A stretch of 32,752 nucleotides of DNA from a virus. This document shows positions 12,036 through 32,752 of this stretch, piece after piece (position 1 is the stretch's first letter; every line of letters starts with the position of its first letter). Below the pieces are notes generated by a model. It had not been told where the DNA came from. It ran no database searches and saw nothing but the letters and a program-made list of their open reading frames with translations. A program made the position numbers and the translations under genes. The stretch lies in IMG/VR virus record IMGVR_UViG_3300042301_001462, positions 1-32,752 of that record; one strand, written 5' to 3'.

Positions 12036-12201
12036 GCAAAAGCTAGTGGCAATCAAGCGTTTTCTTAATCGCGAAATCAAGTACCGCAAGGGTATCCTTG
12101 ACGATGAATTCTTGCAGAGCAATATGCAGGAAATGGAGCTGAGCTACTATGCTCTACAGCTTTCGGTATACGAGAAAGTCCTAAAGGAGTTGAACAAATA
12201 A
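12007..12201 (+). CDS. Hypothetical helical protein
   Basis: The 64-residue product (MTKKIEKTAEQKLVAIKRFL...) is predicted helical with heptad-like spacing. It overlaps the nucleotidyltransferase by 29 bases and the next start by one. Function is unknown. Confidence 0.65.
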   Translation: MTKKIEKTAEQKLVAIKRFLNREIKYRKGILDDEFLQSNMQEMELSYYALQLSVYEKVLKELNK

Positions 12202-12826: not shown

Positions 12827-12997
12827 GTGAATGACGGACAGCGAGAAGGAGCACTACGCCTAGCCTTAGGGTTGGCGTTCCTTGGGCTGGGGTTTGTACT
12901 TTTGTATGGGTGGCAACCAGGTTCCGTCTTCTTACTATTCCTCTCGGTAATGTTTGTCCTTGTCGCGAGGACTCCTGACGGAGACGACGAAGAATGA
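12827..12997 (+). CDS. Small two-helix membrane protein (GTG start)
   Basis: The frame begins GTG immediately after the preceding stop (TAAGTG), with GGGAGA upstream, and encodes 56 residues (VNDGQREGALRLALGLAFLG...). Two hydrophobic segments, about residues 12-30 and 34-48, are separated by 'YGWQPGS', and the tail is acidic (DGDDEE). It overlaps the next gene by four bases. Confidence 0.7.
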   Translation: MNDGQREGALRLALGLAFLGLGFVLLYGWQPGSVFLLFLSVMFVLVARTPDGDDEE

Positions 12998-13350
12998 GCT
13001 ACGCGAGATTTGATGACTACAGTGATGTCTACATGTATCACCACTACATGGGATTCATCGAGTGCTGTGGTTGTTGGATCTCAGACAAGATTCCAGACGG
13101 GTACGAGGATGTACCTGCATCTCGCTTGGAAACACCGCGTCGTGCCATCCGACACTTGATGGAGCACATAAGCAGAGGCTATAAGGTTTCCGAAATAACC
13201 TTTGAAAGAATCTACGGGGAGTACGCGGATTGCATGGACGAGCCACTAGAGTCGTTTGTTAAAACTGAGGAGCAAGAAGCTCGTCAGAAGAGACGTCTTG
13301 ACAAGCTACGTGCTGCTTGGAGAGCACAGATGGACGCAGACGAGAGTTGA
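12994..13350 (+). CDS. Conserved actinophage hypothetical with CCxC motif
   Basis: The 118-residue protein begins MSYARFDDYSDVYMYHHYMG and continues 'FIECCGCWIS', then 'RRAIRHLMEHISRGYKVSE'. The D-V-Y...C-C-x-C...H-L-x-x-H layout is a recurring actinophage family of unknown function; the cysteines and histidines may bind a metal. The C-terminus is a Lys/Arg/Glu helix. Confidence 0.75.
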   Translation: MSYARFDDYSDVYMYHHYMGFIECCGCWISDKIPDGYEDVPASRLETPRRAIRHLMEHISRGYKVSEITFERIYGEYADCMDEPLESFVKTEEQEARQKRRLDKLRAAWRAQMDADES

Positions 13351-13402
13351 CTTTTAGCACCGATTCCTGGAGAATGGTAGTAGTGCCAATTAAAGGAATC
13401 CA

Positions 13403-13936
13403 GTGCTCGATTACTCGCAAGCAAGCTGCTTAGATGCAGACCCAGACATGTTCTTCTCCAATGATGATTATATCTATGACAAGAAAATTGTTGCTCAGGC
13501 GAAACTAATCTGTCGGGGATGCCCTATTGTGAGTGCTTGTTTAGCCGAGGCCATGGAGGGCAAATACCAAGGCATCTGGGGTGGACTAACTGAAGCGGAC
13601 CGAACTCGACGAGCAAACGGAACGGACCATCTGTCTCTTACTGCTGCAGAGTTGGCCGCGAGACGCGAGAACAACGCAAAGCGAACTGCATACGCCAGTG
13701 CAAAGATTGAGCCTTATCTGAAGAAGGCATTGGTTATTTTTGCAGACACCATGCCAAAAGAAACTGTAGAGATTATTAAAGCTAGACTTGCCAATCCAGA
13801 TGTATCTCTAGGGCAGCTAGGCAACTATACTTCCATTAAGCTATCTAAAGATCGAATCTCTGGACGTCTTCGTAGAGCCGTTGATGATGTAAAGAAGTTC
13901 GAAAAGAAACAGAAAGAAGAAGCAGATGCAAAATGA
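13403..13936 (+). CDS. WhiB-like protein fused to a WhiA-type helix-turn-helix
   Basis: A GTG start follows AAAGGA by seven bases. Residues 1-70 are WhiB: C9, C37, C40, C46 and 'GIWGGLTEADR'. After a helical linker, residues about 120-165 read 'IKARLANPDVSLGQLG' and 'KLSKDRISGRLRRAV'. This matches the C-terminal HTH of the actinobacterial regulator WhiA (NPdaSLxELG...xSKxxVxxRLRR). WhiB proteins usually end soon after a short basic tail. In actinobacteria WhiA and WhiB co-operate at the same promoters, so one chain carrying both elements could replace the pair. Assignment of the HTH is by eye. Confidence 0.8.
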   Translation: MLDYSQASCLDADPDMFFSNDDYIYDKKIVAQAKLICRGCPIVSACLAEAMEGKYQGIWGGLTEADRTRRANGTDHLSLTAAELAARRENNAKRTAYASAKIEPYLKKALVIFADTMPKETVEIIKARLANPDVSLGQLGNYTSIKLSKDRISGRLRRAVDDVKKFEKKQKEEADAK

Positions 13937-14060
13937 AGTAGACGCCGCTATTGATTCTGTCGGAGAACGAATCGAACTGGTTGGAATTGCTCTAGCCGTT
14001 TATCGAGAAAAACTTGATGAACTTGATAGAAAGCTTAGTGATCTAGAAAAGATCTGCTAG
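13926..14060 (+). CDS. Small coiled-coil protein
   Basis: A 44-codon frame starts inside the end of the WhiB fusion (overlap 11 bases), with AGAAGAAG upstream. The product MQNEVDAAIDSVGERIELVG... ends 'LDELDRKLSDLEKIC', a clear heptad repeat. Function is unknown; it could pair with the WhiB-HTH protein. Confidence 0.6.
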   Translation: MQNEVDAAIDSVGERIELVGIALAVYREKLDELDRKLSDLEKIC

Positions 14061-14071
14061 GATAAATCTTG

Positions 14072-14151
14072 AACCAGGCGTCTTATTGTTGGTCTTTATA
14101 ACGCCTTGCCGGAACGGTTCCGGACATGCCAGTCAGGGTTCGCTGGCAATT
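14072..14151 (+). promoter_or_regulatory. Three-hairpin leader before tRNA-Thr
   Basis: AGGCGT/ACGCCT, CCGGAACGGTTCCGG and TGCCAG/CTGGCA are three successive stems in 80 bases before the tRNA. They may be processing signals or a small RNA. Confidence 0.4.
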
Positions 14152-14227
14152 GCCCCTGTAACTCAGTTGGTAGAGTGCGATACTTGTAATATCGAAGTCG
14201 CAGGTTCGAATCCTGTCGGGGGCTCCA
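14152..14227 (+). tRNA. tRNA-Thr (anticodon TGT), CCA encoded
   Basis: Acceptor GCCCCTG pairs with CGGGGGC. The anticodon stem CGATA/TATCG encloses CTTGTAA, giving anticodon TGT. The T-arm is GCAGG/CCTGT around TTCGAAT. TCCA at 14224-14227 encodes the CCA end, unlike tRNA-Asn. Confidence 0.95.
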
Positions 14228-14230
14228 AAC

Positions 14231-14245
14231 GTGGTAAAATTGAGT
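14231..14245 (+). promoter_or_regulatory. Leaderless promoter GTGGTAAAATTG
   Basis: TAAAAT at 14235-14240, five bases, then ATG 14246. This links the GGTAAAATT motif to the leaderless spacing seen elsewhere. Confidence 0.55.
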
Positions 14246-14473
14246 ATGAAAGAACCGCACTCTCCCGCGGGGCTAGAAGACATCGACTCTGAATTAGAGA
14301 GCATAGAAGCCTACGCCGTGGACCACATACGCCGAGCCGAGCAGTTGGGTGAGGACAGGCAACGCGTCGAGTTCTTCGAGAAGCTTCGCTCGTTGATTGC
14401 TGAGAAAGATCAGGCTGGGGACACTATGGCAGTTGAGGTAATTTCTTGGGTATACGAAAAGCTTGCGGAGTAG
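14246..14473 (+). CDS. Hypothetical helical protein
   Basis: ATG 14246 is preferred to the in-frame GTG at 14231, which lies within the promoter motif. The 75-residue product (MKEPHSPAGLEDIDSELESIE...) is helical and charged throughout. Function is unknown. It begins 18 bases after tRNA-Thr, probably on a leaderless mRNA. Confidence 0.65.
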   Translation: MKEPHSPAGLEDIDSELESIEAYAVDHIRRAEQLGEDRQRVEFFEKLRSLIAEKDQAGDTMAVEVISWVYEKLAE

Positions 14474-14508
14474 TTGATAAACTAACTGCTTGGTGCTACC
14501 GTTGTAGC
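14474..14508 (+). promoter_or_regulatory. Promoter TTGATA-17-TACCGT, leaderless
   Basis: TTGATA (14474-14479), a 17-base spacer, TACCGT (14497-14502), then six bases to ATG 14509. This is a complete promoter with leaderless geometry. Confidence 0.6.
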
Positions 14509-14652
14509 ATGAAGAACGAAGAGCTAGAGCGAATCCTTAAAGAGGTTCGCTACAATCGCCAGATGCAAAAGAAGCGTCTCTATGAGCAAGCTCGCAAAGA
14601 ACAACGCAGAGCCAAGCGGGCGGCTACCGCGAAAAAAGAAATTAGCGAGTAG
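14509..14652 (+). CDS. Small basic helical protein
   Basis: A 47-residue protein: MKNEELERILKEVRYNRQMQ, then Lys/Arg/Ala-rich to the end (KRAATAKKEISE). No SD precedes the ATG. The highly charged helix may bind RNA or DNA. Function is unknown. Confidence 0.6.
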   Translation: MKNEELERILKEVRYNRQMQKKRLYEQARKEQRRAKRAATAKKEISE

Positions 14653-14661
14653 ACTTACAGC
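14650..14661 (+). promoter_or_regulatory. Leaderless -10 (TAGACT)
   Basis: TAGACT at 14650-14655, six bases, ATG 14662. It has the same hexamer and spacing as the box before the FmdB gene at 5826. Confidence 0.45.
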
Positions 14662-14925
14662 ATGCTAAATAACAACGACTTCGAGTACTCCGAAGAACCA
14701 GATATCATGGACGCCCTTACTAGTGAAACAGCAAAGGTGACTGCACGTTATCTGGACGCTAAGGAAAGACTGGAAGTTGTTTCTTCAGACGCCGTTAATG
14801 CTGCCTATGACTTTGGGTATCTAATTGGTGGGATGGACAAGGCACGAGAGTTTATTACAATGCTTGAGTCGCTTGGTCAGGAAGATGCCGCGGTGATTCT
14901 GAAAGGGTACGTGGGCGATGAGTGA
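14662..14925 (+). CDS. Hypothetical protein
   Basis: An 87-residue protein (MLNNNDFEYSEEPDIMDALT...) with 'AAYDFGYLIGGMDKAREFITMLESLG', a Gly-rich turn between helices typical of small phage proteins. Its end overlaps the cupin gene by eight bases. Function is unknown. Confidence 0.7.
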   Translation: MLNNNDFEYSEEPDIMDALTSETAKVTARYLDAKERLEVVSSDAVNAAYDFGYLIGGMDKAREFITMLESLGQEDAAVILKGYVGDE

Positions 14926-15268
14926 TGGGTTTGTTGAACGCCCTTGGGGTGGCTATCAGATCATTTATCAAGACTTTGGTATTGTTGTAAAAATTCTTAC
15001 AGTCAAGCCTGGTGCTCGTTTGTCTCTACAGAAGCATGCGTTCCGCTCGGAAGAGTGGTATCTCGCTGCTGGTGAGATGTTGGCAATGGTCGACGGGGAA
15101 ACAATCGAAATGGAATTCGGCGAACCAGTTAAAATAGACGCCGGTATTATTCATAGACTCGCGAACGTCGGGTCGGAAGTTGGAAGAGTTGTGGAGATTA
15201 TCTCTGGCAACTATGATGAAGATGACATCGTTCGTTTGGATGATGACTTTGGGAGAATAAATGATTAA
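14918..15268 (+). CDS. Cupin of the mannose-6-phosphate isomerase type II (ManC C-terminal) family
   Basis: The 116-residue protein opens 'VERPWGGYQIIYQDFGIVVK' and carries the cupin signature 'VKPGARLSLQKHAFRSEEWYLAAGE', then 'IDAGIIHRLANVG' and 'DDIVRLDDDFGR'. These match the isomerase domain of bifunctional mannose-1-P guanylyltransferase/mannose-6-P isomerases. The metal-binding positions (Q-x-H, E, H) are present. It would interconvert mannose-6-P and fructose-6-P, fitting the HAD and nucleotidyltransferase genes. It overlaps thyX by eight bases. Confidence 0.85.
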   Translation: MSDGFVERPWGGYQIIYQDFGIVVKILTVKPGARLSLQKHAFRSEEWYLAAGEMLAMVDGETIEMEFGEPVKIDAGIIHRLANVGSEVGRVVEIISGNYDEDDIVRLDDDFGRIND

Positions 15269-15950
15269 GTATCGTACAGACATGACCGTTGAGTTAGTTC
15301 AGTCCATGGCTTCGGATGCATCGGTAGTTCAGGCTGCTCGAGTATCAACGGGTGCAAGCAGTGATGAAGATCGCAACACTGGTCTAATCAACTACCTTAT
15401 GCGTGAGCGTCACGGTTCTCCGTTCGAGCACAACGCGTTTACCTTTTACATCGAGGCACCTATCTTTGTGTTCCGTGAGTTCCAGCGACACCGTATCGCG
15501 TCTTACAACGAAGAGTCTGCTCGCTACAAGCAACTAGAGCCTATGTTCTACGCTCCTAATCTTGAACGCAACTTGGTTCAGACTGGAAAGGTCGGGGCCT
15601 ATGTGTTTGAGCCTGGAACCTTGGAGCAGTTGTCAGTTGTCTATCGTGCAACTTACGAAGCAAATCAAGCCGCGTACGACTCGTACGAAGATATGCTGGA
15701 CGCAGGTATTGCTAGAGAAGTTGCTCGCGGAGTATTGCCAGTGAACATCTACTCGTCAATGTACGTTACGATGAACGCTCGTTCGTTGATGAACTTCCTA
15801 TCACTTCGCACTTCGCGTGAGGGTACGCAGTTCCCATCGTATCCTCAGCGTGAGATCGAAATGGTAGCCGAACAGATGGAGTGCTTCTTCGCAGAGAAGA
15901 TGCCTGAAACCTATAAATCATTTAACAAGAACGGACGTGTGGCACCATAA
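15261..15950 (+). CDS. thyX: Flavin-dependent thymidylate synthase ThyX
   Basis: The 229-residue protein has the ThyX signature 'RHRIASYNEESARY' (RHR-x7-S), plus 'MRERHGSPFEHNAF' and, at the C-terminal side, 'MNARSLMNFLSLRTS' for substrate binding. It makes dTMP from dUMP with FAD, NADPH and methylene-tetrahydrofolate. GGGAGA lies before the ATG. ThyX is common in actinobacteria and their phages. It supplies the same pool as NrdI-NrdF and the dNMP kinase downstream. Confidence 0.97.
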   Translation: MIKYRTDMTVELVQSMASDASVVQAARVSTGASSDEDRNTGLINYLMRERHGSPFEHNAFTFYIEAPIFVFREFQRHRIASYNEESARYKQLEPMFYAPNLERNLVQTGKVGAYVFEPGTLEQLSVVYRATYEANQAAYDSYEDMLDAGIAREVARGVLPVNIYSSMYVTMNARSLMNFLSLRTSREGTQFPSYPQREIEMVAEQMECFFAEKMPETYKSFNKNGRVAP

Positions 15951-16177
15951 TGGATTCCTATGGCGTAGTTACTATTGGCAACCACCTACTATCAATCCCT
16001 GGGTTGGTGCTCTATCTTCTAGTTGTTGCTGGAGGTGTTGCATTGGTTGGTCGATTGATTGACGGAGTTCCTATGCGTTTCCGTTTGCTCAATCTGATGA
16101 TGTATGGGCTAAGCGTTGCAGCGATTGTTGGCTGGATGTTTATTGCACTCGGTCTTAGCTTTTACGTGGAGGCATAA
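15950..16177 (+). CDS. Small membrane protein
   Basis: A 75-residue protein with hydrophobic segments at about residues 14-36 and 46-70, separated by 'RLIDGVPMRFRLLN'. It overlaps thyX and the next gene by one base each (TAATG), so it belongs to the operon. No function is recognised. Confidence 0.7.
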   Translation: MDSYGVVTIGNHLLSIPGLVLYLLVVAGGVALVGRLIDGVPMRFRLLNLMMYGLSVAAIVGWMFIALGLSFYVEA

Positions 16178-16506
16178 TGTCAGTACTAGATGTGAATGGC
16201 CTAGACCAATTTACTAACACAATCATGATTCAGGATGGTCTGGTTGTTTTTGCAACATATGCTGACTGGTCAACGCCTTCTAAAGAAATGATGGAGAATC
16301 TTGAATCAATCTCGGATGAGTTCCGTGGAAGTATTCGATTCGCAAAGATGAACGCCGATACCGAGGGTTCAGTGGAAATGTTCCGAGATCTTGGCATCAG
16401 TGCAGTTCCTTCGTTTGTTGTTATCAAGGACCGAGTTCCAGTGAATGTCGTAAGCGGACTTGTTGATGCAGACCGACTTCGTACATACTTGACTGGGCTT
16501 CTATGA
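16177..16506 (+). CDS. Thioredoxin-fold protein lacking both active-site cysteines
   Basis: The 109-residue protein has thioredoxin length and order: 'LVVFATYADWSTPSKEM', 'IRFAKMNADTE', then the cis-proline loop 'ISAVPSFVVIKD'. The usual W-C-x-P-C is W31-S32-T-P-S35, so both redox cysteines are serine. The protein cannot do thiol-disulfide exchange. It may act as a scaffold, as thioredoxin does for T7 DNA polymerase, but no partner is shown. It overlaps the dNMP kinase gene by four bases. Confidence 0.85.
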   Translation: MSVLDVNGLDQFTNTIMIQDGLVVFATYADWSTPSKEMMENLESISDEFRGSIRFAKMNADTEGSVEMFRDLGISAVPSFVVIKDRVPVNVVSGLVDADRLRTYLTGLL

Positions 16507-17039
16507 TTTTAGCCCTGTCAGGAACAGCTCGATCTGGTAAAGATACAGCGGCTGATTACCTAGTAAAGAACCACGGATACGTGAAGATGTCTTTTGCTGA
16601 TCCAATTCGTGAAGCCCTATATAACTTAAACCCAGACATTCGAGATATGACTGGACTTGTCTATGGGTTCCAGCAGGCAGTAAACCTATTCGGCTGGGAA
16701 GATATGAAAGAGTATTTCCCGTCATACCGAGGACTGATGCAACGCATGGGAACTGAAGTTGCTCGTGACATGTTTGGTCAAGACTTTTGGGTAGACGTCG
16801 CTATGAAACGTATCGGCAGTCTTGAGAACGTAGTTTTTGCTGACTGTCGCTATCCTAATGAAGCAGACGCTGTTCGTGCTTTGGGCGGAAGAGTCTGGCG
16901 AATCGAACGTGATGGCGTAGGTCCTGTAAATGAACACTCTTCGGAACACGCGATGGTCGGATACAAGTTTGATAACCAACTTGACAATTCTTCTGGCATC
17001 AATGTATTGTATGAACTAGTAGATAAAAACCTTATCTAA
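16503..17039 (+). CDS. Deoxynucleoside monophosphate kinase (T4 gp1-like)
   Basis: The 178-residue protein begins MILALSGTARSGKDTAADYL, with a P-loop at G7-T15, then 'SFADPIREAL', 'LMQRMGTEVAR' and 'NVVFADCRYPNEADAVRALGG'. This matches phage dNMP kinases that phosphorylate dNMPs for replication. Placement next to thyX supports nucleotide supply. Confidence 0.88.
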   Translation: MILALSGTARSGKDTAADYLVKNHGYVKMSFADPIREALYNLNPDIRDMTGLVYGFQQAVNLFGWEDMKEYFPSYRGLMQRMGTEVARDMFGQDFWVDVAMKRIGSLENVVFADCRYPNEADAVRALGGRVWRIERDGVGPVNEHSSEHAMVGYKFDNQLDNSSGINVLYELVDKNLI

Positions 17040-17054
17040 CCTAACAGGAGAAAA

Positions 17055-17216
17055 ATGAGCATTTATGCCTATGACTATGGGATACAAGATGGTCGTCAAG
17101 AGCGTGAAGAAGAGATTGTAAACGCCCTTAAGAGTCTAAAAACCGGAAATGAACTGGATAATCTCTATCTAGACGCCATTATTAAGGTTGTTATCGACAG
17201 CGGAAAGGCAAAGTAG
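17055..17216 (+). CDS. Small protein related to the zinc-knuckle group but without cysteines
   Basis: A 53-residue frame with CAGGAG seven bases upstream: MSIYAYDYGIQDGRQEREEE, then 'IVNALKSLKTGNELD'. The G-x3-G-R-x-E-R-E helix and terminal hydrophobic strand recall the genes at 12201-12826 without the zinc ligands. Confidence 0.65.
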   Translation: MSIYAYDYGIQDGRQEREEEIVNALKSLKTGNELDNLYLDAIIKVVIDSGKAK

Positions 17217-17321
17217 ATGGATATATCCTCAGCTTTAATCCTTTTATTGGTCGGTGGACCTATCCTTGTCGGGATTCTCAACGCAATGTTGGACAAAAAC
17301 GACGAAAACTCTGGAGAGTAG
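17217..17321 (+). CDS. 34-residue single-span membrane peptide
   Basis: The ATG directly follows the preceding stop (TAGATG). The product MDISSALILLLVGGPILVGI... has one hydrophobic span (residues 5-24) and a charged tail (DKNDENSGE). It resembles the many tiny phage membrane peptides of unknown role. Confidence 0.6.
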   Translation: MDISSALILLLVGGPILVGILNAMLDKNDENSGE

Positions 17322-17332
17322 CAGTAAAATTA
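17321..17332 (+). promoter_or_regulatory. Putative promoter GCAGTAAAATTA
   Basis: A variant of the GGTAAAATT motif, 30 bases before the next ATG and just after the membrane-peptide stop. Confidence 0.4.
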
Positions 17333-17361
17333 CAAATAATCAAGAGGAGTTTTCGGCAGAA

Positions 17362-17571
17362 ATGCTGAAAGCTATCGAGCAAGAGACCTTAAAAGCCAAA
17401 AAAGAACTGTTAGATCGTCTAGTTTTCCTAGAAGTTCTGAACTATAGCACCTTTGATGAGGTTTATTTTCTTTTCAAAGGCGGAGATATTTACTTTATTT
17501 CTCCAAAAATTGAATTGGAAGACGAAAAAAGCGTTATGATAGAAGAAAGCAAGGAGATTTTTGATGAATGA
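17362..17571 (+). CDS. Hypothetical protein
   Basis: A 69-residue protein (MLKAIEQETLKAKKELLDRL...) with 'VYFLFKGGDIYFISPKIEL' beta-strands and an acidic end. The start is uncertain: AAGAGGAG is 14 bases upstream of this ATG, so an upstream non-ATG start is possible. Confidence 0.55.
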   Translation: MLKAIEQETLKAKKELLDRLVFLEVLNYSTFDEVYFLFKGGDIYFISPKIELEDEKSVMIEESKEIFDE

Positions 17572-17857
17572 ACGCCACCTACTAAAGATTCAAAAGCAAC
17601 GCCACATGTCCAATATTCGTATTATGCTCCTAAACAACCCCATGTTTAAGAACCTAAGCGAGCGAGACCAGAAAAAGATCTCCAAACTCATCTACAAAGC
17701 TGAGATGATTGAGATGCATGCCCGTGATAAGAGCATCATGCGTATCAATAACTCCTTTGAGGACATTATTACTGCCATGATGAATCAGATTGAAGAAGAT
17801 GGATTTGCTGAAGATCAAGACCCTCGCGACGATGATGACCGCGACACGGATCGCTAG
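17564..17857 (+). CDS. Hypothetical protein
   Basis: AAGGAG precedes ATG 17564, which overlaps the previous gene by eight bases. The 97-residue product (MNERHLLKIQKQRHMSNIRI...) is basic and helical, with an acidic tail (DPRDDDDRDTDR). It is the last plus-strand gene before the convergent lysis module. Confidence 0.65.
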   Translation: MNERHLLKIQKQRHMSNIRIMLLNNPMFKNLSERDQKKISKLIYKAEMIEMHARDKSIMRINNSFEDIITAMMNQIEEDGFAEDQDPRDDDDRDTDR

Positions 17858-18017
17858 TCTCTACACACCTTCAGGCTATTTGTTATAGAATGAACTTGTC
17901 ACTCAAGATAGTTATGCTTTCGACTTGAATGACTCTCCTTTCTGTTGGGTAATAGGAGAAGCCCCCTCGGTTTCGTGATTGTCTGAGGGGGTTTCTTCGT
18001 TCCCTGGGTAAAAGGAA
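17858..18017 (+). terminator. Intergenic stretch with a plus-strand terminator
   Basis: CCCCCTC (17962-17968) pairs with GAGGGGG (17985-17991), followed by TTTCTTCG. Just upstream, TCTCCT and AGGAGA (about 17935-17959) can also pair. A TATAGA box near 17883 could start a short RNA, but there is no good -35. Otherwise the stretch is empty. Confidence 0.7.
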
Positions 18018-18044
18018 ACCCCCTGGTTGTTAGAACCGGGGGGT
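18018..18044. terminator. Bidirectional terminator between convergent operons
   Basis: ACCCCCTGGTT pairs with AACCGGGGGGT around GTTAG. T-rich sequence follows on both strands (TCTCTTTCT on plus, TTTCCTTTT on minus). It ends the plus operon and the minus lysis operon. Confidence 0.75.
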
Positions 18045-18109
18045 CTCTTTCTAGGGGTTTTGATTACACGCTATGAATATTACAATGAGTGAGCGTCTTT
18101 ATACCTTAT

Positions 18110-19000
18110 CTAGTCTTCTAGGGCGTTCCAGGTAGCTGGACCAACTACGCCCTCGGCCTTGAGGCCATGCTTGAGTTGGAAGGCAATAACAGCCTTCTTT
18201 GTGTTTGGACCGAAGTCTCCGTCGGCAACAAGTCCACCTAGCTGCTTCTGAAGAATCTTTACAGCACTACCCTTTGAACCCTCTTTGAGGATAGGCATTG
18301 CGTCGAAGTCTTCCTTAGCAGCAACAGGGGCAGGGGTTGGGGCAACTATAGCTGGAGTAGGTGTAGCTACAGGTGCTTCGTCTTCATCCTTGTGATCGAC
18401 AACGATTGGGTCATCTGGTTCTTCCTGGGTAGGAATCTCTGGAACTGAGTGGGAAGGTGCAAGAGTTGCTGGAGCAGTTGCAGGGGTTTCCTTTGCTGCT
18501 TCAACGTGGGCTCTCTCGAACTCAATAACAGCCTTGCAGAACTCCATTGGGTTGTAGTAGCCCTTACCATTGTGGAAGCCTGCCATTGGCTGACCCTTGA
18601 TGTGACCTGCCCAGATCTCCCAGTGGAGGTGTTTACCTGTAGCGAAACCAGTCATACCCATCTTGCCAATGATTGTGCCAGCTTCAATACGCTGACCCTT
18701 CTTGACTTTGATTGAGCCCTTGACCATGTGGAAGTAAGTCCATGTGACTTTCTTGCCCATAACGGTTGACTGGACGATTACTGAGTGACCGCCAGAGGTT
18801 GGTGAGTCATTAGGCTTAACGGCAATAACTTTACCGTCTGCCCATGCTTCTAGATAGGTCGGTTCTCCGCCCTTCCAAATGTCAACACCATTGTGGTGCT
18901 TCTTGGTCTTCTTGATTGGGTGTACACGCCAACCGAATGGGCTGGTGACCTTCCAAGACTTGCCGGGCTTTCCATCGACCGGCCACTGTGACTTTGCCAT
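18110..19000 (-). CDS. Endolysin: M23 (LytM) endopeptidase with C-terminal peptidoglycan-binding domain
   Basis: The 296-residue protein has the zinc site H36-x3-D40 ('HHNGVD') and H124-L-H126 ('KHLHWEI'), with H91 in 'YFHM', the full M23 set. A Pro/Thr/Ala/Glu-rich linker spans about residues 165-225. Residues 230-296 are a PG_binding_1 repeat (LKEGSKGSAVKILQKQL...GDFGPNTKKAVIAFQ). It cuts peptide bonds in cell-wall peptidoglycan. No signal peptide is seen, so it would depend on a holin. AAAAGGAG precedes the ATG within an 18-base leader shared with 9641. Confidence 0.93.
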   Translation of the reverse strand: MAKSQWPVDGKPGKSWKVTSPFGWRVHPIKKTKKHHNGVDIWKGGEPTYLEAWADGKVIAVKPNDSPTSGGHSVIVQSTVMGKKVTWTYFHMVKGSIKVKKGQRIEAGTIIGKMGMTGFATGKHLHWEIWAGHIKGQPMAGFHNGKGYYNPMEFCKAVIEFERAHVEAAKETPATAPATLAPSHSVPEIPTQEEPDDPIVVDHKDEDEAPVATPTPAIVAPTPAPVAAKEDFDAMPILKEGSKGSAVKILQKQLGGLVADGDFGPNTKKAVIAFQLKHGLKAEGVVGPATWNALED

Positions 19001-19032
19001 TTTGGCTCCTTTTGTATAAAGTTTGTGTACTA

Positions 19033-19044
19033 CAATTTTACCGC
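19033..19044 (-). promoter_or_regulatory. Promoter motif GCGGTAAAATTG upstream of the endolysin
   Basis: Identical over 12 bases to 6357-6368 on the other strand. TAAAAT would be the -10 for separate endolysin expression. Confidence 0.5.
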
Positions 19045-19057
19045 GGGGTGGGGGAGC

Positions 19058-19285
19058 CTATTTTTGAGCTAGATGTTCGGCGTAGCGACGTTTTGCGTAG
19101 GCATTCAGGTATGAGTTGCAGTACCGCAATGTGTGGACTGTAAACGTGTTCTGGTACTCAGAGGACCAGTTAGGTACTCCTCGACGCTTAAAGTAGTCCT
19201 TAGTCCACTCGACTGCTTGATTGTAGAGGGCAGTCTTGTCTACTTCTTTTTTGAACTGGCGATAGAGTCTAAACTTCTTGAACAT
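19058..19285 (-). CDS. Hypothetical basic protein of the lysis module
   Basis: A 75-residue protein (MFKKFRLYRQFKKEVDKTAL...) rich in Lys, Arg and Tyr, with 'YFKRRGVPNW' and 'YLNAYAKRRYAEHLA'. Its start overlaps the upstream stop (TAATG). Function is unknown; position between a membrane protein and the endolysin suggests a lysis or tail role. Confidence 0.7.
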   Translation of the reverse strand: MFKKFRLYRQFKKEVDKTALYNQAVEWTKDYFKRRGVPNWSSEYQNTFTVHTLRYCNSYLNAYAKRRYAEHLAQK

Positions 19286-19470
19286 TAGTCTTCGTCCTTG
19301 TCGCGACGTAGTGGGTAGGTTAGGACCCAGATGGTGAGGGTAATCAGGATTAGGTTTCCAGTTAGCTCTTTAGCGGAGCCCTCTAGAACCAACCATGCGA
19401 CTGCCATACCTAGCAGGGTCCACGCCTGTTCGATGATGTCTTTTAATAGTCCTACTAAGAACTTTTTCAT
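19285..19470 (-). CDS. Small membrane protein, holin candidate
   Basis: A 61-residue protein with a basic start, hydrophobic segments at about residues 15-30 and 37-52, and a charged end 'RRDKDED'. Size, two spans and position upstream of the endolysin fit a class II holin. AGGAAAA precedes the ATG four bases after the upstream stop. Confidence 0.65.
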   Translation of the reverse strand: MKKFLVGLLKDIIEQAWTLLGMAVAWLVLEGSAKELTGNLILITLTIWVLTYPLRRDKDED

Positions 19471-19473
19471 TTA

Positions 19474-22047
19474 TTATTTTCCTGTTCTTCTTGAACCGCC
19501 AGAGCTGGATGCCCCTGCGGAAGCTGTACTGGCAGCGGCGGCTGCACTTTGAATGGCTGCTCCAGCGGCAACAACCGCTGTAACAACAATCTTTTCTGAC
19601 TCTTCACGAACTTTTGGAGACATGTCTGCTCCTGCGTTTCCAAGGAAGTTTAGAGCCTCTACCGCTCCAGCAAGACCTGGGATGGCAGCAAGACTTTCAT
19701 CTAGAACAATGTCGTCCTGTTCGGCTGCGAGGTAGAGGGCATCAAGAGCCTGTTCGTATTCGGCAGAGCCTTCTTCAGCAGTCTCGAATGTTTCGAGGGC
19801 TGCTTCCTTTAGTTGGTCTGCCTGTGCTTCGGTAAGTTCTGTAGGATCAACGGAATCGAGGTCAACTTCCATCAAATTGTCGGAAGATAGATCTGCCGGG
19901 ATCTCCTTTGCTCCTTCAGGTTCTGGCTCTGGGGTTGCTTCGATGACGGCAACTCTCTCCTTTAGAGTCTTTACCTTGGTCTCTTGGACAACGATCTCTT
20001 TCTTAGTTTCTACAACGGTTGATTCAACAGAAGTTAGTTGGTTGTTCGTTGTTTCTAGAGCTGCAGCTTTGGCAGCCTTGTCTGCTTGAGTTGTTGATGC
20101 GAACTCTTCCGAAGTTGCTACCAACTCGGTGGCAGTCGCGAGTTCTTGTTCGGTTGTTGTCTTGATCGCGGCAACTTCTTCATAAGATGTTGTCTTGGTA
20201 AGAAGCTGGGACTCCGCGGAAGTTACGCTGCTGCGTGCAGATAGCAAGTCTGCTTCTGCAACTTGGAAGTTGGTTGACGCTGATTCGTAAGAAGTTTGTG
20301 CTGCAGTTTGTGCTGCAGAGGCATTGTTGTATTCATCAAGGGCGGCATCATATTCTTCTTGGGCAGAAGCTATTGCAGGCAGCAATGATGCGTCATTGAT
20401 GAGGGGAGCAGTTGGTTGACCTAGGTAGGAGATGGTTCCAACGATTCGTTTCTGCCAACCGCCACAAGGGTCGCCGTAGACTGAGTTGAGTGCTCGTAGG
20501 GTAACGGTTGAAAGTCCATTTACGCTAGGTGAGATGTTTGAACCGCAGTTTGGTCGTGCGATTGCTTCGTAGCGTAGGTTGCTAGATACAAAGGTTGCAC
20601 CCTCTGGAGCAGTGAATGTCGCCTGACCACCTTCGCCAATGTTTACGTTGAGGGTTCCCTCGGTCTTTACCAGTTCGGTGGTATAGTAAGTCTCGTAGGT
20701 GTAGTAAGTTTCTTCCTCGTAAGTGATGACTTCTTCGTAGGTTGTTTCAGTTACATACTCTCCGTGAGTAACCTTTAGTGCTGGATTTTTCATACGAGGT
20801 CCATACATGCCATACCAAAAACCGTGATCTATTCCAGAGAATGAAACAGTTATGTAAGAAACAGGTCCCGTGGCTGTGAGGGTTACACTTCTATTTGTCC
20901 AGTCATGTGATGTTCTTGTGTTGGTGTATGTGGCAGTTCCAACTGGGTTTCGGTTGATGTCTTCTGCTGTGACAGTCATCGAGTAGCTGTCGGCGGTCCA
21001 GTCGCTGAACCAGTCGGCAGATAAAGTAAGTGTTGCGTTCTCGAAGGGACCAGAGAAGAGTCCTTGGCTGACTGTTTGGTCCATATAAGAGAAGGTAATC
21101 TCTCCATCATACATACCGGGCTGTGAGCCTTGCCACCCTGGGTAAACTCCGCTCCAACCCTCTGTGGTGGTTAGTGTTGGGTTAGGTAATAGGTTTGGGA
21201 TTACCTGCTCTTGGAAAGAAGTAGTTGTGGTTGGAACAAGGGTCTTGACTTCTACTTGTCTGGTGTTTGTGATTGTGCGTATGTGTTCTTTTTGATAAGT
21301 AGGTGCAGTCCACGTTGGGTCTGGGATGAGGTTGTTGTCGTAGTTGTACTGTGCCTGCTGAAGGACCGCGTACTTTTGATTCTTCGTTAGAAGTGCTGCA
21401 GCTAGTGATACTTCGCTTGAGTTGAGCGTGCCTAATGCTAGGTCTTTGGCTGCAATGGCTTCATCGAAAGTTTGCTGTGCGGCATACCTGATTTGTGTCT
21501 GCAGGATTAGTTCATTGTTGGCAGCATTCTTATCTGCTAAAGCGTTCTCGTAGATGCCATTGATTCTTAGTGCTTCTTGGGTGGCTGCTTCCTTTTGAGA
21601 CTTAGCGGCTTCGAGGTTAGCAGATGCAGTTTCTAGATTGGAAGTGGCAGCGTCGTAAGCTTTCTGGGCGTCAGAAACTTTTGTATTAAGTGTGTTGAGT
21701 TCTGCGAGAAGATCTGCTAGTCTTGTCTTGATGTTGTTGTAGGCAGATTCGGCTTTGGCTAATTCTGCTTGGGCATCAATTAAATCCTGAGGAGAAGAAT
21801 ATGGAAATCTCGTTTGTACTAAGCTGGGCATCGTTTTGGATTGGTGCTGTGGCAACAGTCCTAGTGGGCTTCTTTGCCCTGCTATTTGTTGCTGGCTCCC
21901 GTTACGCAAAGCAGCAGAAGAAGTCTGTAGGCCGTCGCTAGACGCCCCTAAAGCCTCTTGGGCTATCCAAACTGGGTAGCATGAGATGAGGGCCACTGTA
22001 ATAAACAGTGGTCCTTTTAGCTTGCTGTGCTTGCTTTTCTTCGACAA
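19474..22047 (-). CDS. Large coiled-coil structural/surface protein (857 residues)
   Basis: A TTG start is chosen because AAAAGGG lies six bases upstream and a CTGCTAAAAT promoter box sits at 22081-22095. Residues 1-35 could be a signal peptide or membrane anchor (MSKKSKHSKLK, then an apolar stretch). Two long Ala/Glu/Gln coiled coils (about 85-230 and 555-700) flank a beta-rich centre (about 280-540) with a Tyr/Glu/Thr repeat 'YEEVITYEEETYYTYETYYT'. The end is Ala-rich, then 'SSSGGSRRTGK'. It is probably a virion or tail protein, from its size and neighbours. Residues 36-82 lie opposite a plus-strand gene and look atypical, so the N-terminus is uncertain. Confidence 0.75.
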   Translation of the reverse strand: MSKKSKHSKLKGPLFITVALISCYPVWIAQEALGASSDGLQTSSAALRNGSQQQIAGQRSPLGLLPQHQSKTMPSLVQTRFPYSSPQDLIDAQAELAKAESAYNNIKTRLADLLAELNTLNTKVSDAQKAYDAATSNLETASANLEAAKSQKEAATQEALRINGIYENALADKNAANNELILQTQIRYAAQQTFDEAIAAKDLALGTLNSSEVSLAAALLTKNQKYAVLQQAQYNYDNNLIPDPTWTAPTYQKEHIRTITNTRQVEVKTLVPTTTTSFQEQVIPNLLPNPTLTTTEGWSGVYPGWQGSQPGMYDGEITFSYMDQTVSQGLFSGPFENATLTLSADWFSDWTADSYSMTVTAEDINRNPVGTATYTNTRTSHDWTNRSVTLTATGPVSYITVSFSGIDHGFWYGMYGPRMKNPALKVTHGEYVTETTYEEVITYEEETYYTYETYYTTELVKTEGTLNVNIGEGGQATFTAPEGATFVSSNLRYEAIARPNCGSNISPSVNGLSTVTLRALNSVYGDPCGGWQKRIVGTISYLGQPTAPLINDASLLPAIASAQEEYDAALDEYNNASAAQTAAQTSYESASTNFQVAEADLLSARSSVTSAESQLLTKTTSYEEVAAIKTTTEQELATATELVATSEEFASTTQADKAAKAAALETTNNQLTSVESTVVETKKEIVVQETKVKTLKERVAVIEATPEPEPEGAKEIPADLSSDNLMEVDLDSVDPTELTEAQADQLKEAALETFETAEEGSAEYEQALDALYLAAEQDDIVLDESLAAIPGLAGAVEALNFLGNAGADMSPKVREESEKIVVTAVVAAGAAIQSAAAAASTASAGASSSGGSRRTGK
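21801..21941 (+). CDS. 46-residue membrane protein nested antiparallel in the coiled-coil gene
   Basis: TGAGGAGAAGAAT-ATG is one of the best SD/start pairs in the window. The product MEISFVLSWASFWIGAVATV... has one long hydrophobic span (residues 4-32) and a basic tail 'SRYAKQQKKSVGRR', a classic small phage membrane protein. A strong plus-strand terminator follows 49 bases after the stop. The antisense residues in the large protein look like low-complexity filler. Both could be real; I cannot exclude that the large gene starts further in. Confidence 0.55.
   Translation: MEISFVLSWASFWIGAVATVLVGFFALLFVAGSRYAKQQKKSVGRR
21990..22018 (+). terminator. Plus-strand terminator after the nested gene
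   Basis: GGGCCACTGT pairs with ACAGTGGTCC over ten positions (one G-U) around AATAA, then TTTT. It lies within the predicted signal-peptide codons of the minus-strand gene. Confidence 0.65.
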
Positions 22048-28030: not shown

Positions 28031-28339
28031 ATGAGACACATCGAAGTACACGTAATTGAGTCGGAGACTGACGTCGCGACTGCACTGTCAAGCGGCCTGC
28101 TTGAGGTGACGGACATTGACGAGGACGTCCACTGTAACCACTGCTCCGACAGGGTCGCGTATGTAGACGGAGAGTTCGTTGCGTTCGCGGTTGCGATTGA
28201 CGAGATGGACGAACCGTGGTTTGTGTGCTTGGTGTGTAGTGAACCCGTAGTCGAACCCGAAGACACTACTCTCTCATTTATTGACCTACTCATTGCGGAC
28301 GAAGAACTTGATGACTTCGACTTGGAAGATGACAACTAA
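28031..28339 (+). CDS. Acidic zinc-ribbon protein
   Basis: A 102-residue protein with 'HCNHCSDRVAYVDGEFVAF' and 'WFVCLVCSEPV', two C-x2-C pairs forming a zinc ribbon, and a very acidic C-terminus (DEELDDFDLEDDN). Function is unknown. Repeat copies follow its stop immediately. Confidence 0.7.
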   Translation: MRHIEVHVIESETDVATALSSGLLEVTDIDEDVHCNHCSDRVAYVDGEFVAFAVAIDEMDEPWFVCLVCSEPVVEPEDTTLSFIDLLIADEELDDFDLEDDN

Positions 28340-28587
28340 CTTCTAACGGACACTGGTAAGAAGTTTTCTCCAACCCCCTTGATAAAAACTTCCAACGAAC
28401 ATTGGTGAGAAGTTTGATGTCGCCTTCACCACTTTTGATGTCTTTTCGGGGCTAAACGAAAAAATGAAAAATTGTCATCTGAACGCACGCACACGCGTAT
28501 AAATAAAAAGCCAAAACTAAATGTTGCGTGATTGTCGAAATCTGTGCTAAGTTCCTCTTGTAATACTTTTCTACGAGAGGACACACC
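28340..28587 (+). promoter_or_regulatory. Junction region: two repeat hairpins, then promoter TTGCGT-18-TAAGTT
   Basis: Two extended repeats (28338-28370 and 28387-28418) can each fold by AACTTC/GAAGTT; the first is followed by TTCTC and could terminate. From 28441 the sequence style changes. TTGCGT (28524-28529), 18 bases and the extended -10 TGTGCTAAGTT (28548-28553) form a promoter for the gene at 28588. Confidence 0.6.
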
Positions 28588-29124
28588 ATTCACACGATAC
28601 AACTAATCCTTGTTGAGGCAGACAGCCCACAACAGGCTTTCACAGAAGTCGCTAACGCCTGCGAGGACATTCGCTGGTCAGATTGGCACAACGCTGTTCA
28701 CGACCAAGTTGATGAACTCAACTTCTCTGGTCGCTGGACAGGTGGCGTTTTTGTAAACGACCCAGATAGCCAAACCACTCAACTCAACTACCTACGCTGG
28801 TCAGATGATGAGGCACTAGGCGACATTGTGTTACAGCGTTTCATCAACTACCGAATGGACGAGATTGCGAGCCTACGCAAAATAATTACTGATAAAGGCA
28901 CAGACCTAACTTCACTCTCATACTCACCACTAGAACAGAACTTTGATAAGAGTATGGACATTTACTATGTCAAGAAGTTAGCCAACATACTTGGAAACGA
29001 TTGGGTCGCTGAAACTGCGTTCTATGACATTACTGCTTGGGACGCGACACTTCACTACTTCACACAGCGTGTGGCACTTGCCCCTGAAAAGCAATACCTA
29101 ATCGCTGTGGACTTCCACCACTAG
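28588..29124 (+). CDS. Hypothetical protein, probable ATT start codon
   Basis: The open frame extends up to a stop at 28561-28563 but has no ATG, GTG or TTG before 28828. GAGAGGA lies seven bases before ATT 28588 and a promoter lies just upstream, so AUU initiation is likely, giving 178 residues (IHTIQLILVEADSPQQAFTE...). The upstream part has protein-like composition and joins smoothly to the rest (RFINYRMDEIASLRKIITDK). No family is recognised. It is the first gene of the AAA/VWA block. Confidence 0.7.
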   Translation: MHTIQLILVEADSPQQAFTEVANACEDIRWSDWHNAVHDQVDELNFSGRWTGGVFVNDPDSQTTQLNYLRWSDDEALGDIVLQRFINYRMDEIASLRKIITDKGTDLTSLSYSPLEQNFDKSMDIYYVKKLANILGNDWVAETAFYDITAWDATLHYFTQRVALAPEKQYLIAVDFHH

Positions 29125-29168
29125 GATTTCGCTCTAAGCGAACAAGCAAAAAAACTTCTCATTAGAAC

Positions 29169-29198
29169 TTGACATTACAAAAAGAACCCCTGTAAAGT
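29169..29198 (+). promoter_or_regulatory. Promoter TTGACA-18-TAAAGT
   Basis: TTGACA (29169-29174), 18 bases, TAAAGT (29193-29198), serving the gene at 29248. AGGACGG is the SD. Confidence 0.65.
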
Positions 29199-29247
29199 CA
29201 GAAGTGTTAGGAAACCACCTAGCAAATAACCAATAGGACGGAAAACT

Positions 29248-29757
29248 ATGAACCCAGAGTTCGGAACTCTAACTGGTGATGTAGCAGAGGCAGTAGCAAC
29301 TGCTGACGCATTACCAACTGGCAACACTGCCAAAGTCATTGGCAAAGGTATTTACCTAGAAATGCCAAACGCTGATGAAACCCAGACGACCCAAGTTTTG
29401 ATTACCCCAGAGGGTATCAGCGAAACTGGTAAGCCTGTGGCTATGGCAATCACCTATCGCACCATTTCAGATTGGTCGCCTCGCAAGCAGTGGCGAACCC
29501 AATTCATTCGCAAGGCAGAGGACAAGTCTGCGAGCGATAATGTAACTGCTATGGCAGAGCAGGTTGAGAACTGGCTGAAACGCCAGATGAACTATGGACT
29601 AACCTCCATTCGCAACTCAACTCCATTAGTGTTTGAGGTAACGAACCTTGACCTAAATGATGTTCTGGATTGGAAAGTTCCAGCCCCAGCACTTCGCCGA
29701 ATTATCAAAGCACGAACCACCATTGGTTTCCCTGCTGACCTTTACAAGACCAAGTAG
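29248..29757 (+). CDS. Hypothetical protein of the AAA/VWA block
   Basis: A 169-residue protein (MNPEFGTLTGDVAEAVATAD...) with central 'YRTISDWSPRKQWRTQFIRK' and 'WLKRQMNYGLTSIRNSTPL'. No known motif is seen. It ends 20 bases before the AAA+ gene and is likely co-transcribed, so it may be a partner or substrate of that system. Confidence 0.75.
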   Translation: MNPEFGTLTGDVAEAVATADALPTGNTAKVIGKGIYLEMPNADETQTTQVLITPEGISETGKPVAMAITYRTISDWSPRKQWRTQFIRKAEDKSASDNVTAMAEQVENWLKRQMNYGLTSIRNSTPLVFEVTNLDLNDVLDWKVPAPALRRIIKARTTIGFPADLYKTK

Positions 29758-29777
29758 TAACGAAAGGACAAATCAAA

Positions 29778-30779
29778 ATGACTACTACTACTGAACTAGA
29801 AATCACCTCTCTACACCCAGAGATGAAAAACCTCGTCTGGGGTGTGGCAATCCACTCCGCAGACCCAACTGCTATCCCTGCTATTATGGATACGCTAATG
29901 CCAACTTCGGCACGAGCCAACCTGCGAGCAAAGGCTGGCACAGCAACTAAGACACCAAAGGCAGTGAAAATGGTAGACGCTATTCAGGGATTAGAGAAAT
30001 ACTCTCGTCCAAATGGACAGGACTACTACTCTCGTGCTTGGGGTGAACACACTGACATTGAGGTTCTACGCAAAGCACGAACCAACAAGCAGTATGTCTT
30101 GCTTTATGGCAATCCCGGCACTGGCAAAACTGCTTGTGTTGAGGGTGCTTTCCCAGAGGAACTTTACACAATCATTGGAACTGGCGACACCGAAACTGCT
30201 GACTTCGTTGGTGGCTACATTCAGACCCCAAGTGGAGGTTTTGAGTGGGTGGACGGAGTTCTCGTAAAGGCTATGGAGGAGGGCAAAGTCCTACTGATTG
30301 ACGAGATTGGTTTGATTGACCCAAAGGTTCTCTCACTGGTCTATGGTCTTATGGACGGACGCAACGAGATTACGATTACCCAGAACCCAGAGCGTGGAAC
30401 TATCCAAGCCAAAGAGGGGTTCTATGTAATCTCGGCGACCAACCCTAACGCACCTGGCGTTCGCCTATCAGAGGCTCTGCTATCTCGTTTCTCTGTTCAG
30501 GTGGAAATGACCACTGACTTTACACTTGCTAAGAAGTTGGGCGTTCCAGCACCAGCAGTTTCAGCGAGCGTGAACCTATCCAAAAAGCAAGTAGCAGGTG
30601 AAGTTTCTTGGTCGCCTCAAATGCGAGAACTTCTAGCGTTCCGCGACTTGTCTGAAATCTTTGGTGCGAAGTGGGCTGTTCAGAACTTGCTCGCCTCTGC
30701 CCCAGAGATTGACCGAGTGGTTGTGGCTGATGTGTTCACTCGCGTCTTTGGTGAGGAAATCAAACCAGCAAAGATTTAG
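29778..30779 (+). CDS. MoxR-type AAA+ ATPase
   Basis: The 333-residue protein has Walker A 'GNPGTGKTA' (G111-A119), Walker B 'VLLIDEIGLID' (D175, E176) and a 'VISATNPNAPGVRLSEALLSRFSV' segment with sensor 1 and the arginine-finger region. These match AAA_5/MoxR ATPases, which act as chaperones with VWA-domain partners. The VWA gene follows. An N-terminal helical domain of about 100 residues precedes the ATPase. CGAAAGGACAA before the ATG is the same leader as the VWA gene. Confidence 0.9.
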   Translation: MTTTTELEITSLHPEMKNLVWGVAIHSADPTAIPAIMDTLMPTSARANLRAKAGTATKTPKAVKMVDAIQGLEKYSRPNGQDYYSRAWGEHTDIEVLRKARTNKQYVLLYGNPGTGKTACVEGAFPEELYTIIGTGDTETADFVGGYIQTPSGGFEWVDGVLVKAMEEGKVLLIDEIGLIDPKVLSLVYGLMDGRNEITITQNPERGTIQAKEGFYVISATNPNAPGVRLSEALLSRFSVQVEMTTDFTLAKKLGVPAPAVSASVNLSKKQVAGEVSWSPQMRELLAFRDLSEIFGAKWAVQNLLASAPEIDRVVVADVFTRVFGEEIKPAKI

Positions 30780-30799
30780 TAGTCCGTCCTACTAAAAAT

Positions 30800-30841
30800 G
30801 GGAGGTGTCAAAAAAGTTGCGAAATGGATTTGACACCTCCC
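30800..30841 (+). promoter_or_regulatory. Perfect 13-base hairpin overlapping a -35 box
   Basis: GGGAGGTGTCAAA (30800-30812) pairs fully with TTTGACACCTCCC (30829-30841). The right arm contains TTGACA (30830-30835); TTTACT follows 17 bases later (30853-30858). The same element could end the AAA transcript and carry the promoter or operator for the VWA gene. Confidence 0.75.
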
Positions 30842-30889
30842 CCAAAATCTGCTTTACTAAATAGGTAGTCAAACGAAAGGACAACCCAA

Positions 30890-32710
30890 ATGGCTCACCA
30901 CAAATCACGACTAGACACTCGCACCAGCACCACTCCCCCAGAATGGTTACAGACCTGTTCCCAGATTGGGGAGGTTGTAAACTCGTGGGCTGGACGAAAC
31001 GACCTAGTTGTTTACGCTGGCTCTGACGCTGGCATTGGACACACTGCTTGCTTTATCAAAGACACTGCTGAAATAGAACTCAACACTGGTATCGCTTTTG
31101 GTGGTGGCGTATCCCCAGCAATCGTTGGCGACTTCCGCGAGCGTGGCACTCAATACGATTGGTCTGCTGTAACTGGCGTGGTCTACCACGAGGCACTCCA
31201 CGCTCGCTATTCAGAGTGGAACACTGACGCTCTACGCTCTATGAACCCTTATGTGTTTGAAACTTTCCAACTACTAGACGAGGCTCGCATTGAGCGTAAA
31301 GGCGTAGTCGCTATGCCAGAGAACCAGATTTTCCTACGCTCGTCTGCTTTGGAACTTTGTCTAGGCGACCTTGATGATGAGGCTGTTTCTAAAATGTCTG
31401 ATGTTCGTATCTCTGCGAATGTCGCTGGTCTGGCTTTGGCTCGTGTGGACGCTGGCGTTCTCAAACTTGCTGATGTGAAGTCCACCTACGAAAAAGTTTT
31501 GGAACTTATGGGCGAGGAACTATTCACGAAACTTCGTGCTATCTGGTGCGAGTTCCAGCAACTCTCAACTGGTGATGTTGCTCGTGGCGAGCAACTTGCT
31601 ATCAAGTGGAATGAACTTCTAAACGAGGCTGACCCAGAGGGCGACCCAGAGAACCAGCAAGAGGGCTGTTTCCCACAGGGAGGGGGCGAGGCTGGCGAGG
31701 GCGAGGGCGAGCCAAAGGGTAAGGGCAAAGGCTGGGGCGAACTTATGGACGCTCTGGGCGAGGACGCTGATGAAACCACCACCTCTGTTGCCAAAGACCT
31801 AGTAGACCAGCAGACCAAAGAGGAAAACGAACAGGAACTCAAAGAGCGTGGCTCAAAGTCAAAGCGACAGCAACAGACCAAGAACGAGGCTGGCAAGGTT
31901 TTCTCAAAGGCTACTGGTGCTGGCGAGAGCGATAGTGGTTCACGCCTGATTGAGCAACGCAAGCCAACTGGTAAAGAGCGAGCAAGTGCTGTAACAATCG
32001 CAAAGATGTTGGAAAAGGCAAAGTATGTGGAACGCTCTGTAACTGAAATCAAGAGCGTATTGCCACAAGGTCGCCTCAACACTCGTGTCGCAATCCAGAA
32101 CCAAGCACTCAAATCAAAGGGAGTGTTTGAGCAAATGCCAGCGTGGCGAGCAAACAAGCGTAAGCACACTGACGACCCAACTCTGAAAATCGGAGTAATG
32201 GTGGACATTTCAGGCTCTATGGGTTCGGCTATGGAGGCTATGGCAACGACAGCGTGGGTTCTATCAGAGGCAGGTCGCCGAGTTCAGGCTAAGACCGCTA
32301 TGGTTTACTATGGCTCTGATGTGTTCGCCACTCTCAAAGTCGGACAGCACCTAGACCAAGTTTCGGTTTGGTCTGCCCCAGACGGAACTGAAAAGTTCGG
32401 GCGAGCATTTGACGCTTTGGACGGAACGCTTGACCTCGTTTACGGACAGGGCGTTCGTATGTTGGTAATCGTTTCGGACGGACACTACTCAGGCGAGGAA
32501 ACCCAGAAAGCCAAAAACGCAATCAAGATGTGTGCGGATAATGGCGTGGCTGTTCTCTGGGTAACTCCGAAAGAGTGCTATTCGGGAATGGGCGAGCGTT
32601 TGGTCGGAAAGAATGGCGTGGTTCTTGACGGAATGGACACCAACCAAATCGCACTAGCGATTGGTCGTTCAGCAACGGACGCACTCAACAAAGTTTCGGG
32701 AGGAATGTAA
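30890..32710 (+). CDS. VWA-domain protein with N-terminal HExxH metallopeptidase-like motif (CobT-like)
   Basis: The 606-residue protein has 'VVYHEALHARYSEW' (H100-E101-A-L-H104) followed by 'FQLLDEARIERK' (E131), a putative zinc site. A Gly/Glu/Lys-rich linker spans about residues 245-330. The VWA domain has a MIDAS 'VDISGSMGS' (D439, S441, S443) and later 'LVIVSDGHYSG'. The layout resembles CobT and VWA-like metallopeptidases that work with MoxR-type ATPases. It probably binds a client through the MIDAS and is driven by the neighbouring ATPase; peptidase activity is unproven. It has its own promoter. Confidence 0.88.
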   Translation: MAHHKSRLDTRTSTTPPEWLQTCSQIGEVVNSWAGRNDLVVYAGSDAGIGHTACFIKDTAEIELNTGIAFGGGVSPAIVGDFRERGTQYDWSAVTGVVYHEALHARYSEWNTDALRSMNPYVFETFQLLDEARIERKGVVAMPENQIFLRSSALELCLGDLDDEAVSKMSDVRISANVAGLALARVDAGVLKLADVKSTYEKVLELMGEELFTKLRAIWCEFQQLSTGDVARGEQLAIKWNELLNEADPEGDPENQQEGCFPQGGGEAGEGEGEPKGKGKGWGELMDALGEDADETTTSVAKDLVDQQTKEENEQELKERGSKSKRQQQTKNEAGKVFSKATGAGESDSGSRLIEQRKPTGKERASAVTIAKMLEKAKYVERSVTEIKSVLPQGRLNTRVAIQNQALKSKGVFEQMPAWRANKRKHTDDPTLKIGVMVDISGSMGSAMEAMATTAWVLSEAGRRVQAKTAMVYYGSDVFATLKVGQHLDQVSVWSAPDGTEKFGRAFDALDGTLDLVYGQGVRMLVIVSDGHYSGEETQKAKNAIKMCADNGVAVLWVTPKECYSGMGERLVGKNGVVLDGMDTNQIALAIGRSATDALNKVSGGM

Positions 32711-32742
32711 CCCGACAAAAGAACTCCGTTGGGATTGAGCAA

Positions 32743-32752
32743 CCCCCCCCCC
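32743..32752 (+). other. Terminal 10-C tract, probable contig-end artefact
   Basis: A run of ten C residues ends the window, right after ordinary sequence, as left by tailing during library preparation or by assembly failure. It should not be read as biology. Confidence 0.6.

Follow-up and report, generated by a model that had tools for sequence, protein, structure and literature searches.

The window analyzed here is the complete 32,752-base IMG/VR virus record IMGVR_UViG_3300042301_001462, which is probably a phage fragment. Its proteins have their nearest relatives in Actinomycetia phage DSL-LC01, followed by Microbacterium and Gordonia phages. DSL-LC01 was assembled from lake metagenome data and has Actinomycetia as its predicted host; the family is one of large viruses, probably of freshwater Actinobacteria. 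Over its last 4.3 kb, the window is almost devoid of four-base palindromes. This segment, referred to below as the desert, contains or adjoins the following features.

28190..28590, no strand: left edge of the desert, comprising the end of a small Cys-rich open reading frame (ORF; 28031-28339) and the next intergenic region; placed by change-point, palindrome positions, and relatives.
28441..32752, no strand: visible part of the desert, stopped by the contig end; defined by palindrome counts, density, and codon shuffles.
29248..29757, plus strand: ORF of 169 amino acids within the desert, in the position of DSL-LC01 hyp26688; its position before the AAA gene is kept in relatives.
29778..30779, plus strand: AAA_5 (CobS/MoxR-type) ATPase of 333 amino acids, the AAA gene; Pfam AAA_5, E value of 4e-20.
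30890..32710, plus strand: CobT-like (VWA-like) protein of 606 amino acids, the VWA gene; 44.5% identity to the "cobalamin biosynthesis protein" of DSL-LC01.

Across 28441-32752, no copies were found of ACGT, AGCT, ATAT, CATG, GATC, GCGC, GGCC, GTAC, TGCA, or TTAA, while TATA, TCGA, and CCGG occurred once each, AATT four times, and CGCG five times. CTAG, with 14 copies, was present at normal frequency and was the sole clearly normal four-base palindrome. The expected number per word was 15.7 to 17.6 from base composition and 1.6 to 22 from a maximal-order Markov model; the lowest Markov value, 1.6, belonged to CCGG, so the one site of that word in the block is uninformative. The original prediction had named eight words, six as absent and CCGG and TCGA as single, and the recount agreed with it exactly. 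The codon-preserving shuffles that it had proposed as a test did not reproduce the depletion: the three genes of the block contained 16 palindromes, compared with 166 ± 10 in 500 shuffles (minimum, 128). For palindromes other than CTAG, the counts were 3 versus 47 in the shuffled AAA gene (z = -8.0) and 1 versus 87 in the shuffled VWA gene (z = -11.6). The near-total loss of palindromes was therefore real and stronger than claimed, although the normal frequency of CTAG had gone unmentioned.

The transition into the desert was abrupt. Palindromes numbered 16 to 49 per 500 bp across the 4 kb before the block and 1 to 4 beyond 28.5 kb, and the change-point for the left edge in the window was placed at 28188. 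The interval 28441-32752 was right overall, but the desert starts earlier, at about 28190 to 28340, and its end is only the end of the contig. The adjoining palindrome-rich strip also exists, but it is a trait of the endolysin region; it was rejected as part of the system, as it is also present in the desert-free relatives DSL-LC01 and G011 (observed/expected ratio [O/E], 1.1 to 1.2). One word behaved differently from every other palindrome, GCGC being missing from the entire window, 1-32752 (0 versus about 53 expected outside the block).

A search with the AAA protein yielded 68 IMG/VR loci, in many of which palindrome density falls just upstream of the AAA gene. The O/E of palindromes other than CTAG ranged among the loci from 0.04 to 0.05 (L018 and L007) through all intermediates to 1.1. 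In longer contigs, the desert measured about 14 kb (G001), 22 kb (G002 and G004), 24 kb (G007), and 31 kb (G003), with a near-random palindrome density in the genome outside it. By change-point analysis both edges were sharp, mostly within 200 bp, and the left edge lay 1.3 to 2.3 kb before the AAA gene, a place equivalent to that in the window. The conserved order was endolysin, left edge, AAA, VWA, many small ORFs, right edge, terminase/portal, capsid, tail, and replication genes. Bins of 1 kb gave the impression of an entry gradient running smoothly onward from the left edge; this was rejected, as the change-points defined a two-edged block and G007 had no gradient. Residual trends within the desert may reflect newly acquired genes. 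No direct or inverted repeats common to both edges were found beyond short AT-rich motifs.

An identical gene order without a desert was found in DSL-LC01 and G011. Their AAA and VWA genes carried 50 to 70 palindromes per kb, while those of the desert phages carried 0 to 25 per kb. On the AAA tree the strong deserts clustered and the state changed at least seven times; the window grouped with L018 and L007, whose deserts are the deepest. Because of this distribution on the tree, the desert behaves as a heritable lineage property of these phages that has been gained or lost. A sub-group comprising G010 (L083-L089), L032, L034, L038, and L042 had at least three palindromes missing throughout. 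Most other palindromes were avoided more mildly across a large part of the genome, least so in the structural genes.

The identity of the depleted words was examined in seven deserts pooled. The 15 palindromes other than CTAG were the 15 most depleted strand-merged 4-mers, whereas non-palindromic 4-mers had a median O/E of 1.02. Among odd palindromes, the median O/E was 0.36 for known restriction sites versus 0.83 for the remainder (p = 7e-4). When asymmetric 5-mers were ranked by depletion, known restriction sites took the first seven places; GTCTC had an O/E of 0.10. The avoided odd-palindrome and Type IIS words that matched known enzymes were GGWCC, GCWGC, CCWGG, GANTC, GTCTC, and GGATG. 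Outside the deserts, O/E was near expectation (GTCTC, 1.01; GGWCC, 0.97; GCWGC, 1.09; GANTC, 1.09), GGATG being the lowest at 0.80.

The avoided set was specific to the phage. GCGC and CATG were spared in G001, and AGCT, TCGA, and GCGC in G009, while the G007 desert contained none of 93 expected AATT sites and 76 of 105 expected CGCG sites. Some words were missing genome- or contig-wide, namely, CCGG in G001, GATC and CCGG in G003 and G012, ACGT/AGCT/GATC in G010, and ATAT and TTAA throughout DSL-LC01. Apart from these few, avoidance was confined to one segment and did not extend over the whole genome as is usually described. Regional avoidance of restriction sites under selection is thus well supported, and the restriction avoidance put forward in the original prediction was borne out, with avoided words that match known restriction specificities in a set that varies by phage.

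The right edge of the desert carries a conserved, single-copy element of 85 bp with the consensus core TCTCACccgcCAAAAGCAgTtnacGntaAggta. It scored 46 to 87 bits, compared with at most 11 for the next best position in the genome, these scores including the training sequences. In G001, G002, G003, G007, and G009, the element coincided with the right edge or lay no more than a few hundred bp from it; in G012, whose desert is weaker, it was located close to the desert's end. In several phages it is followed after 40 to 200 bp by a gene for a helix-turn-helix (HTH) protein, which had weak terminase-type matches only, and then by TerL. The contigs retrieved with the HTH protein and TerL were reduced to 41 non-redundant ones, a few of which had already been used. 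The median O/E in this set was 0.45 to the left of the element and 0.91 to its right, with the left side lower in 38 of 41 contigs (p = 1e-8). In contigs selected for low values on the left, pooled palindrome density was about 1.3 per 100 bp before the element and stepped up there to about 5 per 100 bp. Among HTH loci truncated on the left, 12 of 28 begin within 1 kb of the gene, which could reflect either a terminus or repeats that are hard to assemble. The type of contig end was dropped as proof of a terminus and not used as evidence, as repeats near the HTH gene could break contigs likewise.

Within the window, the AAA gene directly precedes the CobT-like gene, and the product of the latter matches annotated CobT-like phage proteins. 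By eye, the CobT-like protein contains an HExxH motif (YHEALHARY) near the N terminus and a DxSxS MIDAS-type motif (DISGS) near the C terminus; judged by these motifs, the product of 30890-32710 is possibly a metallopeptidase plus VWA protein. It had no Pfam match at 1e-3, the VWA model included, and no relatives of it were found by a search in cellular genomes. The 169-amino-acid ORF at 29248..29757 likewise had no Pfam match. A run of ten C residues closes the record at 32743-32752, 33 bases past the stop codon of the VWA gene, and is probably an assembly artifact. Far from the desert, the ORF at 4446-5813 was also palindrome depleted (37 versus 70 in shuffles; z = -5.2), the missing GCGC explaining only part of this, and the stretch 5024-5811 matches the class Ia ribonucleotide reductase beta gene of Mycobacterium phage Myrna with 73% DNA identity.

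Strongly acidic small proteins were more common in the deserts (19% versus 8%). Genes for Api92-like proteins (DUF1281_C) were found in deserts at L099 12746-13558 and L101 10953-12026, and DUF3846, DUF2958, and DUF6011 proteins were also present. The Api92-like and DUF proteins are candidates for early anti-defense functions. A 3,289-amino-acid protein of DSL-LC01 was considered as a virion RNA polymerase and rejected, as it had no Pfam or PHROG support.

We consider it likely that the desert is a terminal, first-entering host-takeover segment purged of restriction sites, resembling the first-step-transfer DNA of phage T5 but far more extreme. The block 28441-32752 would then be the left end of a segment of 14 to 31 kb purged of many Type II and Type IIS sites. 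Entering the host first, this segment would present few sites to host enzymes; it would be transcribed, and its small early proteins would neutralize host restriction. The remaining approximately 100 kb or more would arrive later, protected and free to carry sites. First entry before protection is proposed as the most straightforward account of why a single segment should face restriction so much more than the remaining genome. Words missing genome-wide (GCGC in the window; CCGG, GATC, or ATAT/TTAA elsewhere) would correspond to enzymes that the early protection does not stop. If the desert is a terminal repeat collapsed in assembly, two sharp edges and contigs running through both would result. 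We infer the terminal location, probably in a long terminal repeat, together with the order of entry, the host-takeover character of the genes, and the existence of an early protection factor within the desert. The excess of acidic proteins and the distribution of C5 methyltransferases described below lend the model weak support. Known phage anti-restriction proteins mostly act on Type I systems. It is with more hesitation, and as a proposal that may well fail, that we read the desert as a footprint of entry order in an uncultured phage family with stepwise entry. The first 14 to 31 kb, being free of sites, would get past hosts that differ widely in their restriction enzymes and would encode a broad protection effective on unrelated enzymes of Type II and Type IIS, so that site densities elsewhere in the genome could stay near normal.

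A close parallel, in layout only, is T5, in which the 10,219-bp terminal repeat is the first-step-transfer DNA, annotated as first entering, and carries early genes. This repeat has no EcoRI, HindIII, or BamHI sites. However, its four-base words are only mildly depleted (GGCC, 12 versus 26 expected), whereas in the deserts nearly all are gone over 14 to 31 kb, and two-step entry is proven in T5 but deduced for the desert phages. SPO1 has a terminal repeat of about 13 kb with many small early and host-shutoff genes, followed by small genes and terminase. The cultured Microbacterium phage Pumpernickel (NC_073468), a distant relative with related AAA and VWA proteins, was found to have an exact direct terminal repeat of 19,963 bp (1-19963 and 166133-186095), for which no repeat feature was annotated in the record regions read. 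The repeat contains endolysin and about 50 small ORFs and starts 2 kb after the VWA gene; unlike in the desert phages, about 30 kb separates the AAA gene from the VWA gene. The leading region of conjugative plasmids is likewise first-entering DNA enriched in anti-defense genes, but it enters single stranded, and in the parts of the source consulted no comparable regional site desert is reported (PMC11602122).

Several observations weigh against the first-entry reading. The terminal repeat of SPO1 is no more depleted than the adjoining DNA, GGCC and CGCG being missing both inside and outside it, and the Pumpernickel repeat has no desert and, in the regions sampled, no 85-bp element. The G004 desert is interrupted at 34.5 to 38.5 kb by a palindrome-normal stretch overlapping TerL before it resumes and ends at the element; this stretch looks like a recent rearrangement whose sites have yet to be purged. 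The boundaries in G010 do not fit the element. Although CTAG is a known restriction site, no desert showed strong avoidance of it. Known asymmetric sites, taken together, were not depleted in the pooled deserts (median, 1.03); therefore, only some specificities count. Finally, no known anti-restriction family was found in 61 desert proteins, as judged from 25 listed of the 29 matched Pfam families.

Alternatively, the avoidance could be real but unrelated to entry order, the remaining virion DNA being shielded by base modification or a compartment and the desert being left out of that protection. Regional avoidance by itself is silent on why the region is exposed, and a C5 DNA methyltransferase was indeed found in DSL-LC01 (L071 48374-49618), in G011, G019, and G023, and in the weak-desert contig G028. 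Among the strong-desert contigs, however, it was present in G016 only, QueC or D12 methyltransferase was found in 0 of 26 contigs, and N6/N4 methyltransferase was found in 0 of 6. To our knowledge, there is no precedent for a phage genome modification that skips one terminal block, and we regard this explanation as unlikely. Since the C5 enzymes occur mainly where the desert is weak or absent, modification is perhaps an alternative route of survival against restriction.

The words might instead be avoided owing to early nucleases of the phage itself, such as degraders of host DNA, and an HNH endonuclease gene does lie within the G002 desert. Yet self-cleavage should purge the whole genome and not a single block, and the avoided set is broad, varies by phage, and matches Type II and Type IIS specificities that are numerous and unrelated, which makes this very improbable. 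The sharp edges would suit a module taken up from some other replicon in which sites are strongly avoided, and a different origin of the AAA/VWA module had been suggested originally. That suggestion fell to the comparison with relatives: the genes are orthologous and syntenic with those of the desert-free DSL-LC01 and G011, desert strength takes all intermediate values and clusters on the AAA tree, and the avoided set differs among phages that share the genes. Nor is the AAA/VWA module the depleted unit, as the desert runs well beyond it in relatives. We therefore give a foreign module even less credence than the nucleases. An artifact of composition or codon usage, or chance, would account for CCGG only (Markov expectation, 1.6) and is contradicted by the codon shuffles, the Markov expectations, and the 41-contig step test; its probability is negligible.

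Genome-wide avoidance of Type II sites in phages is already known (PMC6286503) and shares with the desert the selection against such sites; the desert differs in forming one bounded segment, in covering many specificities, and in leaving near-normal frequencies elsewhere. An EcoRI-free pre-early region in a T5-like phage is also known (PMC13250531). Among open-licence papers, no earlier description was found of a desert that has sharp bounds, is nearly complete, and covers multiple enzymes, or of the use of such a desert to locate first-entering DNA. If the first-entry reading is true, the order of entry and the genome ends of uncultured phages would be readable from sequence alone, and the avoided set of each phage would record the restriction enzymes met by its population. 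The compact set of small early genes would be a place to seek a broad inhibitor of Type II restriction. The reading would also suggest that, after entry of the first segment, most of a phage genome can be shielded against Type II restriction.

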